The notes beneath the pieces were generated by a model. That model worked only from the letters and a program-made list of their open reading frames with translations, made no database searches and was not told the origin of the DNA. Positions 30,872 to 40,531 of a DNA stretch of 48,302 nt are shown one piece after another. A program made the translations under genes and the position numbers. How positions within the stretch are numbered: the stretch's first letter is position 1; each line of letters begins with the position of its first letter. This DNA is from Gemmatimonadota bacterium (GTDB taxonomy: Bacteria; Gemmatimonadota; Gemmatimonadetes; Gemmatimonadales; GWC2-71-9), in NCBI GenBank assembly GCA_003246755.1, contig QKDC01000091.1:1-48302 (forward strand), read 5' to 3'.

Positions 30872-34256
<3,385 letters not shown>

Positions 34257-35546
34257 TCAGCGGACGCGCACCTCGATGCCGTCCAACAGGAGTGAGGGCC
34301 CACACCACGCGCCGACCCACTGTGACTCACGGCTCACTGCGACGACGTGATGCAATAGGTCGTACACGTTCCCGCTGATGGTGGCGGACCGCAAACGCCC
34401 AACACGCTCGCCCTCCGACATCCAATAGGCCCACGGCGTGACGAGGGTCACCCTCCCGTCCATCACATTCCCCCTGGGGATAGGTACATCCTCGATCACA
34501 ATCACCTCGCCTTCATTCAGGAACTCGGCGGTCGGAGTCTCGCCCGAGCCCACCATCAGGTTGCTGTAGGCGACCCGTGGCGGGGTGTGGGGTCGGCGCC
34601 TGGCATGCCCCGTGGAGGGGATGCCCAACCGTGCCCCAGAGGCCAGATCCGACACCCACCCACTGAACCGCCCTCGATCAATCAAGGACTGGCGGTGGGA
34701 CACGACCCCGTCGTCATCAATCGGCCGCGAACCAGGCCGGTGAGCGATGGTCGGATCATCCACGATCGTCAGTAGGTCGGGGACGACCACATCACCCACG
34801 CGATCGCGAAAGGGGGAGGACCCATCGAATACACTCTCGCCGAGCAGTCCCAGTTCCAGGGGCCGTAACAGCGCACGGACCGCCCGTGGACCCAGGCAGA
34901 CCCGCACCGGATCGGGACTCGGGAGCCGGTCGAGCGTCGCCGGGGAGAGCCACTCCATCACGGTGGTGACCAGAGCCTCTGCATCCAGTCCGGTAGGCCA
35001 GGACGTGCCGACGATCTGAAGGCTCAGCGGTATCGGCGTGAGGTTTTTCGTATCGAGAATCGTCGCTCCAACCCCAACGAGGGTCTGCTCGTAATCCGCC
35101 ACAACCCCCCTCGTATTCGCGACCTCCACTCGTCCTGCGGAGCGTTCTGCCCATACGTCGACCTGCCAGCGGTCTTCTTCGATCCGCCGAGCGACCGACT
35201 TCGCCAAGTCGAGCAGTTGCATCGGACCGGCACTCAGTGCGACACGATCGGCCGTGTGGACACTTGGGGTAGGCGCGGGAGCGGGGAGGAGGAGTGACCC
35301 CAAAGGTCCGACGGCGACGCTGTCAAGTGCCGCCTGGCGGAGTTGGGGCCAGCGACCGTCCGTCGCGCCCGCCATGCCGATCCGATCGTCTTTGAGCACC
35401 CGGAGATGGCAACCCATTCCACTGTGACGCTCCAGGCGCCCCACACCGTCGGAACCGAGTGAGACGGTGACGGTCTCATCTGTCTTGAGCACCGCATCGG
35501 CCGCCGTCACGAGTGGTGCGACGCCGTCGAGCAGGTCGGTTATCAA
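34257..35546 (-). CDS. tldE: TldE/PmbA-like metallopeptidase partner
   Basis: A 429-residue protein of the TldD/TldE (peptidase U62) family. In E. coli TldE is the non-catalytic half of a heterodimeric peptidase that degrades modified peptides such as microcin precursors and CcdA. It shows the family layout, with an N-terminal domain of strands and helices and a C-terminal half with FDGSSPFRDRVGD, SYSNLMVGSGETP-type (here AYSNLMVGSGETP) and VTLVTPWAYWM. It lacks the HExxGH motif, as expected. I place the start at TTG 35546, which overlaps the tldD stop in TTGA with GGGAG 7-8 bases upstream. An in-frame codon at 35651 would lie deep inside tldD. Confidence 0.8.
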   Translation of the reverse strand: MITDLLDGVAPLVTAADAVLKTDETVTVSLGSDGVGRLERHSGMGCHLRVLKDDRIGMAGATDGRWPQLRQAALDSVAVGPLGSLLLPAPAPTPSVHTADRVALSAGPMQLLDLAKSVARRIEEDRWQVDVWAERSAGRVEVANTRGVVADYEQTLVGVGATILDTKNLTPIPLSLQIVGTSWPTGLDAEALVTTVMEWLSPATLDRLPSPDPVRVCLGPRAVRALLRPLELGLLGESVFDGSSPFRDRVGDVVVPDLLTIVDDPTIAHRPGSRPIDDDGVVSHRQSLIDRGRFSGWVSDLASGARLGIPSTGHARRRPHTPPRVAYSNLMVGSGETPTAEFLNEGEVIVIEDVPIPRGNVMDGRVTLVTPWAYWMSEGERVGRLRSATISGNVYDLLHHVVAVSRESQWVGAWCGPSLLLDGIEVRVR

Positions 35547-36895
35547 GACTGGTCTCCCACCAAGGCTTCCACCAATCGGATATGCGGGGCGCCACTCCCG
35601 ACCGGAACGGTCTGCCCCCCGAGTGAGCATGTCGCGGCCGCGGTATCCCACGTGAAGTCGGCCCCGACAGCGTCGATCATACCGAACAATCCCAGCGGGT
35701 CACCACTGAGCGACGCACCCTTCACCGGCTCGGCGAGTTCACCGCGACGGATCATTCGGCCCAACCCGGCCCGGAGGGTGACCATCCCGTCGTCCGTCGC
35801 CGACAGGGGCTCTCCGAGGTACACGCCGAGGTCCAAGTCACGAATCAGATCGGCACCCGTCCCCATCCCCTTTGCCAAGTAGGTGTTGGTCAAGCGAGAC
35901 GTCGGGAACCCAGCGGCGGGAGCTCTGGCATTGCCCGTAGCACCCAACCCGGCCGCTCCGGCGCTGGCCCGCGTATGGAGGTGCCCCACCACCACCCCGT
36001 TTTGAACGATCGTCGTGTTCTGAGGTTGTGTCCCTTCGCAATCAAAGGCCGATGTCCCTCTCAGCCCCGGCGTCTTCCCGTCGTCGCCGATGGTTAGAGA
36101 ATCTGGCCCGATCCGGGTACCGATGGGCAACAGTGCGGCCCCCGGGTGCCAGCCTGCGGCGCACCGATGCCCAATGACGCGATGGACGAGCAGGCCTGCA
36201 AAGGTTGGTGCCAGCACGACCGGGTAGCGGCCGGGTATCACAGGGACGGCGTGGAGAGCCGCGACGGCGCGCTCCGAAATCGCAGAGATCCCGCCCAGCC
36301 AGGTTTCGACGTCGTGCAGGGCACCGGCGGTCGAGCAGCTTCCCAACGCCCGTTCCACGGTGCCGGATTCCGCCGCGACCGCGAGCGCCGTCATGCTGAT
36401 GGAGGGACGCCTCTCTACAAGCACCATGCCTTCAGAATTGACGACCACGACCTCGGTCAGCTGATCTTCCCACTTGACGCGAACGTCGCCAATCCTCCGA
36501 TCGACGCTTCGGAGCGATTCTACTCCCCTCCGTACGAAGTCACGCTTGATTGCAACGTCGATCGCGCGGGGGTCACGTCCTTCAGGACAAGGGATGTCCG
36601 CTTGACGCGGTGGAAGTTCCGAGAGTCGAATGGAGTGGCGTGTGGGGAGCGCAAGAGAGAATTCATGGGCGGTGCTGATGGCACTGCGCACCTCGTCGAG
36701 GGTGGCGAATGTCGCCGATCCCCACCCATGGCCACTATTGAAGCAACGGACCACCCCGATGGCCTCCTCCGTGGAGGTGGCAAACTCTTGCCCCCGCCGG
36801 CGATAGGACAGCATGGTCCGCCAACGTCGGTCGAATCGGATGTCGGTAAACGCTGCAGGTGATCCAACAACCAGCTCGTGGAGTTGCGACCTCAC
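35543..36895 (-). CDS. tldD: TldD-like metallopeptidase with HRxxGH zinc motif
   Basis: A 450-residue TldD-family protein. The catalytic motif of active members is HExxGH followed by EGD. Here the aligned segment is LVHRVIGHRC (residues 236-245), so the catalytic Glu is Arg239 (codon CGC) and EGD is absent. Both His and the distal Cys ligand (ATCSLGGQTVPVG near the C-terminus) remain. Zinc may still bind, but hydrolysis as known for TldD should fail. Elsewhere it fits the family (GVVRCFNSGHGWGSATFATL at about residues 47-66, RLTNTYLAKG). It is coupled by 4-base overlaps to the phosphoribosyltransferase upstream and to tldE downstream. Confidence 0.85.
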   Translation of the reverse strand: MRSQLHELVVGSPAAFTDIRFDRRWRTMLSYRRRGQEFATSTEEAIGVVRCFNSGHGWGSATFATLDEVRSAISTAHEFSLALPTRHSIRLSELPPRQADIPCPEGRDPRAIDVAIKRDFVRRGVESLRSVDRRIGDVRVKWEDQLTEVVVVNSEGMVLVERRPSISMTALAVAAESGTVERALGSCSTAGALHDVETWLGGISAISERAVAALHAVPVIPGRYPVVLAPTFAGLLVHRVIGHRCAAGWHPGAALLPIGTRIGPDSLTIGDDGKTPGLRGTSAFDCEGTQPQNTTIVQNGVVVGHLHTRASAGAAGLGATGNARAPAAGFPTSRLTNTYLAKGMGTGADLIRDLDLGVYLGEPLSATDDGMVTLRAGLGRMIRRGELAEPVKGASLSGDPLGLFGMIDAVGADFTWDTAAATCSLGGQTVPVGSGAPHIRLVEALVGDQS

Positions 36896-37413
36896 CCCTC
36901 GCCCGCGAGGTACATGGCGAGGTCTGGTCGCACGACGAGGTCACCATCGACGACAGTCTCCCGATCCCAGGGGAGAACGATCAGCTTATCGGTTTCGAGT
37001 GCATAGAAATCTGGATCGTATGGCCCCGTCCGAATCGAAACCGCTGTCCGGACCTCAGCCGGCCCAAGAGCCTGAACCTCGTTCAGGGCGAGCTTGAGCG
37101 TATGCCCGGTATCACACGTTTCGTCCACGACCAGAACGCGCCGGCCGGCAACCCCAACCGGGGGACCGGATACCAACTCGGGCATGGCTTCCGTCCCCCG
37201 TCGCGTCACGGCCATTGCGGCAAATTCACGATCGATGATCGAAGCGACCACAGCACCGGGGATCACCCCTGCCTTCGCGATTCCGATCACCAGATCAGGG
37301 TCATAGTGCTGGGCCACTCGAAGGGCCAGTGCCCGGCAGAGTTCACCAAACAGTGCCCAGTCGATTTCGAGAAGCCCACGCTGGCTGGCCGATAGGTTCT
37401 TTCGCACCTTCAC
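36892..37413 (-). CDS. Phosphoribosyltransferase-domain protein
   Basis: A 173-residue type I phosphoribosyltransferase. The PRPP-binding motif VLVVDETCDTGHTL (about residues 92-105) is intact, preceded by VIGIAKAGVIPGAVVASI, the usual N-terminal loop. The overall size and the hood region resemble xanthine/hypoxanthine-type enzymes or the PRTase-like domains next to peptidase and helicase genes. The base substrate is not determined. The start is GTG at 37413; another GTG codon lies two codons later. It overlaps tldD by 4 bases, so the pair is co-translated. The divergent TPR gene is 126 bases away, and I see no confident promoter in that gap. Confidence 0.8.
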   Translation of the reverse strand: MKVRKNLSASQRGLLEIDWALFGELCRALALRVAQHYDPDLVIGIAKAGVIPGAVVASIIDREFAAMAVTRRGTEAMPELVSGPPVGVAGRRVLVVDETCDTGHTLKLALNEVQALGPAEVRTAVSIRTGPYDPDFYALETDKLIVLPWDRETVVDGDLVVRPDLAMYLAGEG

Positions 37414-37539: not shown

Positions 37540-37992
37540 ATGAGTATCTGGCAACGCCTCTTCGGAAAGGCCAACCCCCGGAAAGCGCACCGGCTTGACT
37601 ATCTGAACGAGGCTATGGCCCTCGAGCGTCAAGGTGACTTGGCTGGCGCCATCACTTCCTACCGGCTGGGGCTTCGTGACAACCCCAACGATCTCACGAT
37701 CTTGCAGAATATCGCCATTGCGTTCTCCAAAACCGGTCAGGTCGAGGAAGCCATTCGGCATTACCGGCGGGCCCTTGCCATCGACAGCACGCTGTCTGGC
37801 GCCCACTACGGGATCGCGTTCTTGTTGATCAAGAAGGGTGACCCCATCAAGGGTGCCGAGCATCTACGCACCTTTCTGGCAAGTCCGCCTCGGGGGCCAG
37901 ACGCCGCGCGTTGGGTGCAACACGCCGAGACCACCCTTCGGGACCTGCCTCTTCCGGAGTCCGGGGAGGCTGGGTCCGCCCCGCCGGCATGA
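37540..37992 (+). CDS. Small TPR protein
   Basis: A 150-residue soluble protein with three TPR units: ALERQGDLAGAITSYRLGLRDNPND, IAFSKTGQVEEAIRHYRRAL and AFLLIKKGDPIKGAEHLRTFL. All carry the A-G-Y/A-P positions of the repeat. It has no signal peptide and a short Pro-rich tail. No Shine-Dalgarno sequence precedes the ATG. Its stop overlaps the next ATG (ATGA at 37989), so it is translationally coupled to the lipoprotein and, through it, to the acyl-CoA synthetase. A scaffolding role is inferred; no partner is known. Confidence 0.8.
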   Translation: MSIWQRLFGKANPRKAHRLDYLNEAMALERQGDLAGAITSYRLGLRDNPNDLTILQNIAIAFSKTGQVEEAIRHYRRALAIDSTLSGAHYGIAFLLIKKGDPIKGAEHLRTFLASPPRGPDAARWVQHAETTLRDLPLPESGEAGSAPPA

Positions 37993-38696
37993 GCCTTCGA
38001 AGCAAGACGCTCATCCTGCTCGGACTGGCAGCGTGCAGCGACATTACCGCCACCAGCGATGGGGTTGCCACCCTGCTCATCGAGATCCCTTCCCCAGCAC
38101 AAGTCGAAGTGGGCGAAACCATAGGGCTGGTGGCGACGCCACTCGATGCGAATGGCGAAGTGGTCGCCGCTCCCGTCTATTGGATTGCCCTCGACAGTAC
38201 GGTCGCGGTTGACAGTGCCGCCGGACTCCTGACGGGCCTCATCCCGAAATCGACCGGCCGGGTGGTTGCTCGCACGGGTGATCTCTATTCGTCTCCCTTG
38301 AGCTTCTCGGTCCTCGAACGGGCCGACACCCTCATTCGCATCGCTCCCAGTCAGGACACGGTCGAGGCCGGCGAGTCGGAGTCAGGAGTCCTGGAAGTGA
38401 GGTTGGACGGTGGAGAGCCCCCCGCCCCGCTCAGCGGACGAGTGATCGTGTACCAGGTTGTCGATCCGGTGTTTGGGGTTGCGGAGAGCCGCACGGTCGA
38501 ACTCACGGGTGGCGGATTGGTTCAGGGCACCAAGACCACAGCCAGTGGATCCACATCTCCCGGTATTCGGCTCCACCGGCGGAGTGGTTACCAGGCACCG
38601 GACAGTGCCGTGGTGACGGCCAGCGCCTGGCGACCGGGCGGAGAGAGCATTCCTGGGAGTGGGGTGCGATTCACCGTGCGTTTTGTGAACCCATGA
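37989..38696 (+). CDS. Lipoprotein with Big2-like domain
   Basis: A 235-residue lipoprotein. The signal MSLRSKTLILLGLAAC carries the lipobox LAAC, with the modified Cys at residue 16. Residues about 26-105 match the Big2 (bacterial Ig-like group 2) pattern: LLIEIPSPAQVEVGETIGL, ATPLDANGEVV, VYWIALDSTVAVDSA, GLLTGL and GRVVARTGDL. A second beta-rich region follows (ESGVLEVRLDG, RVIVYQVVDP). It probably sits on the periplasmic or outer leaflet and binds a surface partner. The start is chosen because it overlaps the TPR stop and gives a complete lipoprotein signal; an upstream in-frame start would run through the TPR gene. It overlaps the synthetase start by 4 bases. Confidence 0.8.
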   Translation: MSLRSKTLILLGLAACSDITATSDGVATLLIEIPSPAQVEVGETIGLVATPLDANGEVVAAPVYWIALDSTVAVDSAAGLLTGLIPKSTGRVVARTGDLYSSPLSFSVLERADTLIRIAPSQDTVEAGESESGVLEVRLDGGEPPAPLSGRVIVYQVVDPVFGVAESRTVELTGGGLVQGTKTTASGSTSPGIRLHRRSGYQAPDSAVVTASAWRPGGESIPGSGVRFTVRFVNP

Positions 38697-40531
38697 CGAC
38701 ACCATCCATCGACCCTGGGACTCCCCAAACGCTGACAGAGTTGTTCTTCAAGGCCACCAGTAGGCGGGATGAAGGGGAAGTGGCCATGCGCGCGTGTCGT
38801 GGGGGCACGTGGTCCGCTATCACGCTGGGCGAGTTTCGCTCGCAGGTTCGGGAGGCGAGCCTGGGACTGCGCCACTTGGGCCTTGGGTCAGGCGATCGCG
38901 TCGCCCTCCTGTCCGAGAACCGTCCCGAGTGGGCCATCGTCGACTACGCGTGCCTGACTGCCCGCTGTACCGATGTCCCCGTGTATCCGACCCTCCCCGC
39001 CGGTCAGATCGAATACATCCTCCGGGACTCTGCGGCGGTGGCCATCTGCGTGTCGAGCCAGGCCCAGTTCAAGAAAATCGACGCGATCCGTGATCGGCTT
39101 CCCGCCCTGCGCCACATCATCGTCTTCGATGCGGTGGACGCGACCGGAACCATCACGTTCGAGGAGCTCCGACGACTCGGCCGTCGAGCTGCGGAGAACC
39201 ACACGGATTGGGAACAACGGGCGCTGGCCGCGGAACCAACCGACCTGGCAACCATCATCTACACCTCGGGTACCACCGGTGATCCGAAAGGTGTGATGCT
39301 CTCCCACGGCAACATCGCCTTCAATGTCCGTGCGGCGACGGCAGCGCTCGACATCGGGACCCAGGATGAGTGCCTTTCCTTCCTGCCCCTGTCGCACATC
39401 TTCGAGCGGACCGGGGGGCACTTCGTGATGTTGTGGGCGGGTGTCGTCATCAACTACGCGCGCAGTGTAGAGGCGGTGGCCGCGGACATGGCGACGCGGC
39501 GACCAACCGTGATGACCGCCGTGCCGAGAGTGTACGAAAAGATCTATACGAGGGTCTGTGACGCAGCGATGTCCACTCGACTCAAGGCGCGCGTGTTCGA
39601 GTGGGCCAAGCGAACGGGGGAACGGTGGGCCGAGCGGGTCACAGCGGGGCAACCGGTCGGCGTCCCGCTTCGCCTGGGACGAGCCGTGGCCGATCGACTG
39701 GTCTTTCGACGACTCCGCGAGCGGACCGGTGGTCGTATCCGATTCTTCGTGTCCGGGGGGGCGCCCCTCTCACGGGAGCTCGCTCGCTTCTTCTATGCCG
39801 CGGGACTCACCGTCCTCGAAGGGTACGGCCTCACCGAGACCTCGCCGGTGGTCACCCTCAACGTTCCGCAGCGCATGCGATTCGGCTCGGTGGGCCAACC
39901 CGTGGCGGGAGTCGAGGTCCGTATTGCCCCTGACGGTGAGATTCTCACCCGCGGGCCGCACGTGATGATGGGGTATCTGAACCAACCCGAGGCCACGGCA
40001 GAAGTGATCGATGCCGAAGGCTGGTTTCACACAGGGGACGTCGGGCACATCGATGCAGACGGCTTTGTCTACATCACCGACCGGAAGAAAGACCTCATTG
40101 TCACGTCCGGGGGGAAGAACATCGCCCCACAGCCGATCGAGAATCGCCTTCGAAGCAATCCCTTCATCGCAAACGCCGTGATGCTCGGAGACCGAAGGAA
40201 ATTCCCCATCGTTCTCCTCGTCCCCGAGTTCGAACGACTCCAGACCTGGGCGGAGGATGAAGGCCTGAGCGCGGTGGACCAGGAAACCCTTGTCGGCTTC
40301 CCAGAGGTCCAGGTCAAAATGGAGGAGGAGGCCAAGAAATGTCTGCGCGACCTCGCACAATTCGAAGTCCCCAAGAAGTTCCTGATTCTCCCGCGCGAGC
40401 TCACCATCGAGTTGGGTGAGCTGACGCCGAAGTTGTCTGTTCGGCGCAAGACCGTCGAAGCGAACTTCGCGAACTCGATCGCTGCCCTGTACAACGCCTC
40501 GGGCGCCCACCGGTCCCAGCCGCGGGGGTAG
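38693..40531 (+). CDS. Long-chain acyl-CoA synthetase (AMP-forming)
   Basis: A 612-residue ANL-superfamily enzyme that activates long-chain fatty acids to acyl-CoA through an acyl-adenylate. It shows the P-loop-like TIIYTSGTTGDPKGVMLSHGN (in two parts), the adenine-binding EGYGLTETSPVVTLN, GEILTRGPHVMMGYLNQPE and the hinge DRKKDLIVTSGGKNIAP. The long-chain subgroup is suggested by FLPLSHIFERTGGH and by the C-terminal FEVPKKFLILPREL with KLSVRRK. It overlaps the Big2-like lipoprotein by 4 bases and abuts a convergent gene with no gap. Substrate range cannot be read from sequence. Confidence 0.93.
   Translation: MTTPSIDPGTPQTLTELFFKATSRRDEGEVAMRACRGGTWSAITLGEFRSQVREASLGLRHLGLGSGDRVALLSENRPEWAIVDYACLTARCTDVPVYPTLPAGQIEYILRDSAAVAICVSSQAQFKKIDAIRDRLPALRHIIVFDAVDATGTITFEELRRLGRRAAENHTDWEQRALAAEPTDLATIIYTSGTTGDPKGVMLSHGNIAFNVRAATAALDIGTQDECLSFLPLSHIFERTGGHFVMLWAGVVINYARSVEAVAADMATRRPTVMTAVPRVYEKIYTRVCDAAMSTRLKARVFEWAKRTGERWAERVTAGQPVGVPLRLGRAVADRLVFRRLRERTGGRIRFFVSGGAPLSRELARFFYAAGLTVLEGYGLTETSPVVTLNVPQRMRFGSVGQPVAGVEVRIAPDGEILTRGPHVMMGYLNQPEATAEVIDAEGWFHTGDVGHIDADGFVYITDRKKDLIVTSGGKNIAPQPIENRLRSNPFIANAVMLGDRRKFPIVLLVPEFERLQTWAEDEGLSAVDQETLVGFPEVQVKMEEEAKKCLRDLAQFEVPKKFLILPRELTIELGELTPKLSVRRKTVEANFANSIAALYNASGAHRSQPRG

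Follow-up and report, generated by a model that had tools for sequence, protein, structure and literature searches.

The TldD homolog encoded in a Gemmatimonadota genome carries arginine at the position of the catalytic glutamate, and this glutamate has been lost throughout a group of its orthologs. For the equivalent residue of E. coli TldD, E263, a role as acid-base catalyst has been proposed, and a variant with alanine there (E263A) is described as catalytically inactive (PMC5810440). The original prediction, made from the DNA alone, was that TldD/TldE as a whole may be a pseudo-peptidase. By sequence, this is well supported under the known mechanism: the glutamate loss is clade-wide, the genome carries a single pair and its TldE likewise has no HExxxH motif. 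The account that we consider fairly probable is that both subunits are pseudoenzymes, inactive by the known mechanism and retained for some function other than hydrolysis, which may be peptide binding. Table 1 lists the relevant features of the window, that is, the entire 48,302-nt stretch analyzed (contig QKDC01000091.1, assembly GCA_003246755.1).

Table 1 Features in and around the tldD locus of the window
Feature	Position	Strand	Basis
NAD-dependent DNA ligase gene (ligA), conserved flank	31669..33708	+	Annotation and synteny
V4R-domain gene, conserved downstream neighbor	33705..34256	+	PF02830 and synteny
tldE homolog, open reading frame as listed; translation probably begins with the TTG at 35546, which shares TTGA with the tldD stop	34257..35651	-	PF19289, E = 9e-47
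tldD homolog encoding 450 aa from a GTG start, with Arg at the catalytic Glu position	35543..36895	-	PF19289 and PF19290 matches, 5nj5 match, AF2 model
Cys423-Ser-Leu425: third metal ligand (E. coli C454) present, conserved G455 and K456 gone	35621..35629	-	Alignment
Ala246-Ala247-Gly248 in place of conserved Glu-x-Asp (E. coli E270, D272), clamp tether	36152..36160	-	Alignment
HRVIGH, degenerate HExxxH motif, residues 238-243	36167..36184	-	Translation and alignment
Arg239 codon CGC (E. coli E263 position)	36179..36181	-	Codon reading
Phosphoribosyltransferase-domain (PRT) gene, conserved upstream neighbor, 4-nt overlap with the tldD start (GTGA)	36892..37413	-	PF00156 and synteny
TPR protein gene, conserved flank	37540..37992	+	Annotation and synteny
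AMP-binding enzyme gene, acyl-CoA-synthetase-like, conserved flank	38693..40531	+	Annotation and synteny

Active site of the window TldD

Homology, pairing with tldE and positional orthology to canonical tldD genes identify the protein as a TldD subunit. Its C-terminal and central PmbA_TldD domains scored above the cut-off (PF19289, 138 bits; PF19290, 34 bits), while the N-terminal PF01523 model remained unmatched in the window's genome. The best match among solved structures was E. coli TldD (5nj5, E = 4e-35), with PmbA more distant (4e-11). The AF2 model (pLDDT 90.8, falling to ~77-79 at residues 241-260 directly after the motif) lies nearest to E. coli TldD E263A (5njc, TM 0.87). A TldD fold is thus predicted with confidence, with the reservation that the model is no proof of folding because its input alignment included canonical TldDs.

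Aligned to E. coli TldD, the H262/E263/H267 motif of active TldD/E enzymes becomes H238/R239/H243, and the clamp tether is replaced throughout (E270/D272 by A246/G248, K456 by L425). Both histidines, the distal cysteine ligand (C454, here C423) and the brace arginine (R362, here R334) are retained. These readings agree exactly with the HRxxGH motif and CGC codon reported initially, with the missing 'EGD' and with the preserved histidines and cysteine; the exchange of the lysine adds to them. One detail needs correction, as the change from GAA or GAG to CGC takes three base substitutions rather than the 'at least two' first stated. K456 of E. coli pairs with E270/D272. Alanine at E270 or D272 impaired soluble expression of the E. 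coli protein and H267A misfolded (PMC5810440), so stability of the window TldD would need compensation.

Two further peculiarities concern positions outside these motifs. Cys245 (36161-36163), two residues past the second histidine, is shared by 8 of 12 degenerate TldDs and by 1 of 73 canonical ones, which could reflect shared descent or an altered metal site. Conversely, G46, D286 and P290, kept by all other degenerate orthologs, are exchanged in the window (Ile46, 36758-36760; Cys286, 36038-36040; Gln290, 36026-36028), making its TldD more derived than the sister orthologs.

Distribution and genomic context

A search of 102 genomes of the family recovered the ortholog in 50. Besides HRVIGH in the window, non-HE motifs comprised HRSLGH (L004), HRAVAH (L029), HQTVGH (L005), HQTLGH (L012) and HHALGH (L024), and six species of g29 carry LQxxxN, with the cysteine changed to leucine wherever the C terminus is present. 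Such degenerate TldDs (HQ, HH, HR or LQxxxN) occur in six genera including that of the window, from several separate assemblies, and their hosts belong to a group of uncultured Gemmatimonadota from soils and lakes. HE is present in all 73 canonical homologs of the alignment; the 34 rows of distant homologs in the alignment, whose loci come from named phyla outside Gemmatimonadota or from lineages further removed, keep it. All exceptions fall within one group, a pattern that, for the sequences compared, is far beyond chance. The original prediction had named HExxGH in relatives as a counterargument. More distant orthologs do carry it, but the nearest do not, and the glutamate loss is a clade trait rather than private to the window. 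In one genome (G042; L026, L096), the canonical g8 tldD is divided between two frames that overlap; a frameshift in the assembly or a recent break is the probable cause.

The block ligA-V4R-[tldE-tldD-PRT]-TPR-acyl-CoA synthetase is common to canonical and degenerate genomes; the degenerate tldD is, therefore, a vertically inherited positional ortholog, and the conserved synteny rules out horizontal gain or a paralog. No second TldD/TldE pair, as had been suggested for a check, was found in the window's genome (95.8% complete). Eight genomes (G000, G001, G009, G050 and G138-G141) have only the degenerate pair, namely the window's, G001, G009 and five of the six g29 genomes. Four others (G028, G032, G052 and G017) harbor an additional, different TldD-type pair, with HES motifs read in G028 and G017. 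In two genomes with the degenerate pair, the further pair is of a distant TldD/TldE type (L064, HESIAH; L065, HESVGH). Judged from these motifs, most genomes with the degenerate pair appear to be without an active TldD.

Many sister genera lack the pair at this slot, where flanking genes nearly abut or a DUF4097 gene is found instead, and the pair is to this extent dispensable. In pair-less genera (L214, L216, L217, L218 and L221), the DUF4097 gene lies between the PRT and V4R genes, and its product may have a signal peptide. The L223 slot contains a DUF4097 gene plus an amidohydrolase gene and the L224 slot an insert of ~8 kb.

Selection on the degenerate pair

Retention was counted over the 57 columns conserved in at least 95% of the 73 canonical TldDs. 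All 12 degenerate proteins keep R50, G156, D285, E287, G288, G300, G321, P331, R334, N337, G357, I382 and G385. E239 is kept in none of 12, K425 in one of 11 and D248 in two of 11, with H238, H243 and C423 present in about half. Loss was greater at active-site residues known from the literature than in the remaining columns (Fisher p = 0.012; the test was ad hoc and covered few columns). Every full-length degenerate ortholog, across six genera, has an intact open frame, compared to ~2-6 stops per gene expected from neutral simulation at the observed divergence. Because YN00 saturated in most pairs, we quote dN/dS from NG86, with values being approximate at dS ~0.9: 0.16-0.36 in g29 versus 0.06-0.21 in canonical genera for TldD and 0.39-0.68 versus 0.08-0.24 for TldE.

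Mean root-to-tip distances of degenerate versus canonical sequences were 1.32 versus 0.26 for TldD and 1.80 versus 0.54 for TldE, that is, ~5-fold and ~3-fold faster evolution. Valyl-tRNA synthetase showed no such excess (0.66 versus 0.61), which rules out genome-wide fast evolution and indicates that constraint on TldD/TldE is clearly relaxed. TldE is the faster-evolving of the two proteins throughout the family, whether the lineage is canonical or degenerate. From these sequence comparisons, the pair is relaxed yet still maintained. Purifying selection is evident in g29 and presumably extends to the window's genus, represented by one genome. The combination expected of a pseudoenzyme, clade-wide loss of an essential catalytic residue in a gene kept by selection, is thus found, with the selection component coming from g29.

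The main rival reading takes the pair for a decaying relic, in which TldD/E activity became unneeded, the base was lost and both genes drift to deletion under residual constraint. It would account for the strong acceleration being confined to tldD and tldE, for the absence of orthologs from about half of the family genomes, for the emptied or DUF4097-occupied slots of sister genera and for the three conserved residues lost only in the window. It fits less well with the open frames in all full-length sequences, the low dN/dS of g29 TldD and the fact that scaffold and brace residues were selectively retained. The high dN/dS of g29 TldE weighs against a kept role. We regard decay as unlikely, though deserving serious attention, and a kept non-hydrolytic role as more likely than pure decay; the nature of that role is a guess.

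Origin and order of decay

In a TldD tree computed with active-site columns removed, all non-HE orthologs fell into one group, requiring one change on the tree, with support of 93/80 where L005 joins and of 99/98 at the node uniting the ten others. The TldE tree gave the same grouping, and in both trees the group adjoins orthologs with intact HExxGH. According to host genes, degenerate hosts are interleaved with genera lacking the pair, a pattern compatible with catalysis having been lost once and the genes later. A single loss of catalysis is favored, with long-branch effects possible. Two to three independent losses of the glutamate are also possible. On the flanking-gene tree, a clade of degenerate hosts by themselves is rejected (p = 0.008), but one of degenerate plus pair-less genera is not (p = 0.33). 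In the TldD data, a placement of the core with canonical g8 is rejected (p = 0.003).

Codons at the glutamate position are GAG (26) or GAA (9) in canonical genes and CAG/CAA (Gln), CAC (His) or CGC/CGT (Arg) in degenerate ones. They suggest GAG > CAG > CAC > CGC as the simplest path of single-base steps; with such a route via glutamine, no special event has to be invoked for the three base differences at Arg239. Living orthologs also display different extents of loss. In L005, the base alone is missing and Glu/Asp/Lys are retained, g33 retains the ligands with Lys changed to Arg, the clamp tether is gone in the window, g2 and g18, and in g29 the metal ligands are lost as well. We infer an order of decay from base to clamp tether to metal ligands.

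We propose that an ancestral TldD would have lost its general base by a Glu-to-Gln change (GAG to CAG), which would end hydrolysis through the promoted-water mechanism known for these enzymes. Subsequent drift may have taken individual lineages further, with Arg or His at the base position, shedding of the Glu/Asp/Lys tether and, in g29, of both histidines and the cysteine. The brace arginine, a large part of the scaffold and, as modeled, the fold are retained, and the pair is still encoded with the PRT gene in an apparent operon. A hollow TldD/E shell most likely still assembles, and this cage probably serves some purpose other than peptide cleavage. It may bind or sequester unfolded peptides or act as a scaffold or regulator; E. 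coli E263A TldD still binds a hexapeptide in its cleft (PMC5810440). The complete scenario, in which the whole pair is a non-hydrolytic cage for binding or guarding peptides that arose through the ordered losses visible among living genera, in genomes without an active TldD, is put forward more tentatively.

The kept metal ligands raise the alternative that His238, His243 and Cys423, perhaps with Cys245, still bind a metal for other chemistry or for slow hydrolysis with another base. A metal may still be bound by the window's TldD: all three ligands are present in the window, g2, g10, g18 and g33, Cys245 is enriched among degenerate proteins and E. coli H262A TldD keeps its metal (PMC5810440). 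However, the window protein has no Asp or Glu in residues 224-262, so no neighboring acid obviously replaces the lost glutamate, the clamp tether is gone and the related g29 pair is maintained despite losing all three ligands. The 'another chemistry' raised at the outset found no positive support, with the g29 losses fitting metal-site decay better, and we consider it improbable. Although the window derives from a draft genome of 190 contigs, a sequencing, assembly or binning artefact is extremely improbable given the three base changes required and the agreement of synteny and codon-position GC with neighboring genes, and a read error, already doubted initially, or a private mutation is ruled out by related changes in several separately named, independent GenBank assemblies, with the same degenerate motifs recurring in named Gemmatimonadota assemblies from different projects.

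Comparison with known systems

TldD/E occurs in ~60% of bacterial and nearly all archaeal genomes, with an unclear general cellular role (PMC5810440). A lineage that keeps the shell after loss of catalysis would represent a natural separation-of-function experiment, as the known proteolysis cannot be what the degenerate pair still does. A graded active-site series is available within the clade, from HE through HQ/HH/HR to ligand loss, useful for studying protease-to-pseudoenzyme transitions. In the open-access literature searched, we found no description of such degenerate TldDs, which does not prove absence. The pair resembles metallopeptidase pseudoenzymes, inactive homologs retained for binding or scaffolding, which are the subject of a review (PMC11266112) whose main text mentions neither TldD nor M103.

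Closer comparisons are found within the family. Canonical Gemmatimonadota orthologs (L006, HEAFGH; L013, HEAIGH) share ~40% identity with the window TldD, L006 also the slot and neighbors; unlike it, they keep the active-site residues and evolve more slowly. With E. coli TldD/TldE (PmbA; MEROPS M103, 5nj5/5njc), the window shares the two-gene pair, the modeled fold, the two histidines and distal cysteine and the brace arginine but, with arginine for the catalytic glutamate and the tether lost, conventional hydrolysis would not be expected. TldE/PmbA itself provides a precedent as a natural family member that persists as a shell subunit without the catalytic glutamate. In contrast to its usual partnership with an active TldD, the TldD ortholog is itself degenerate here, such that neither subunit is predicted to be catalytic by the known mechanism.
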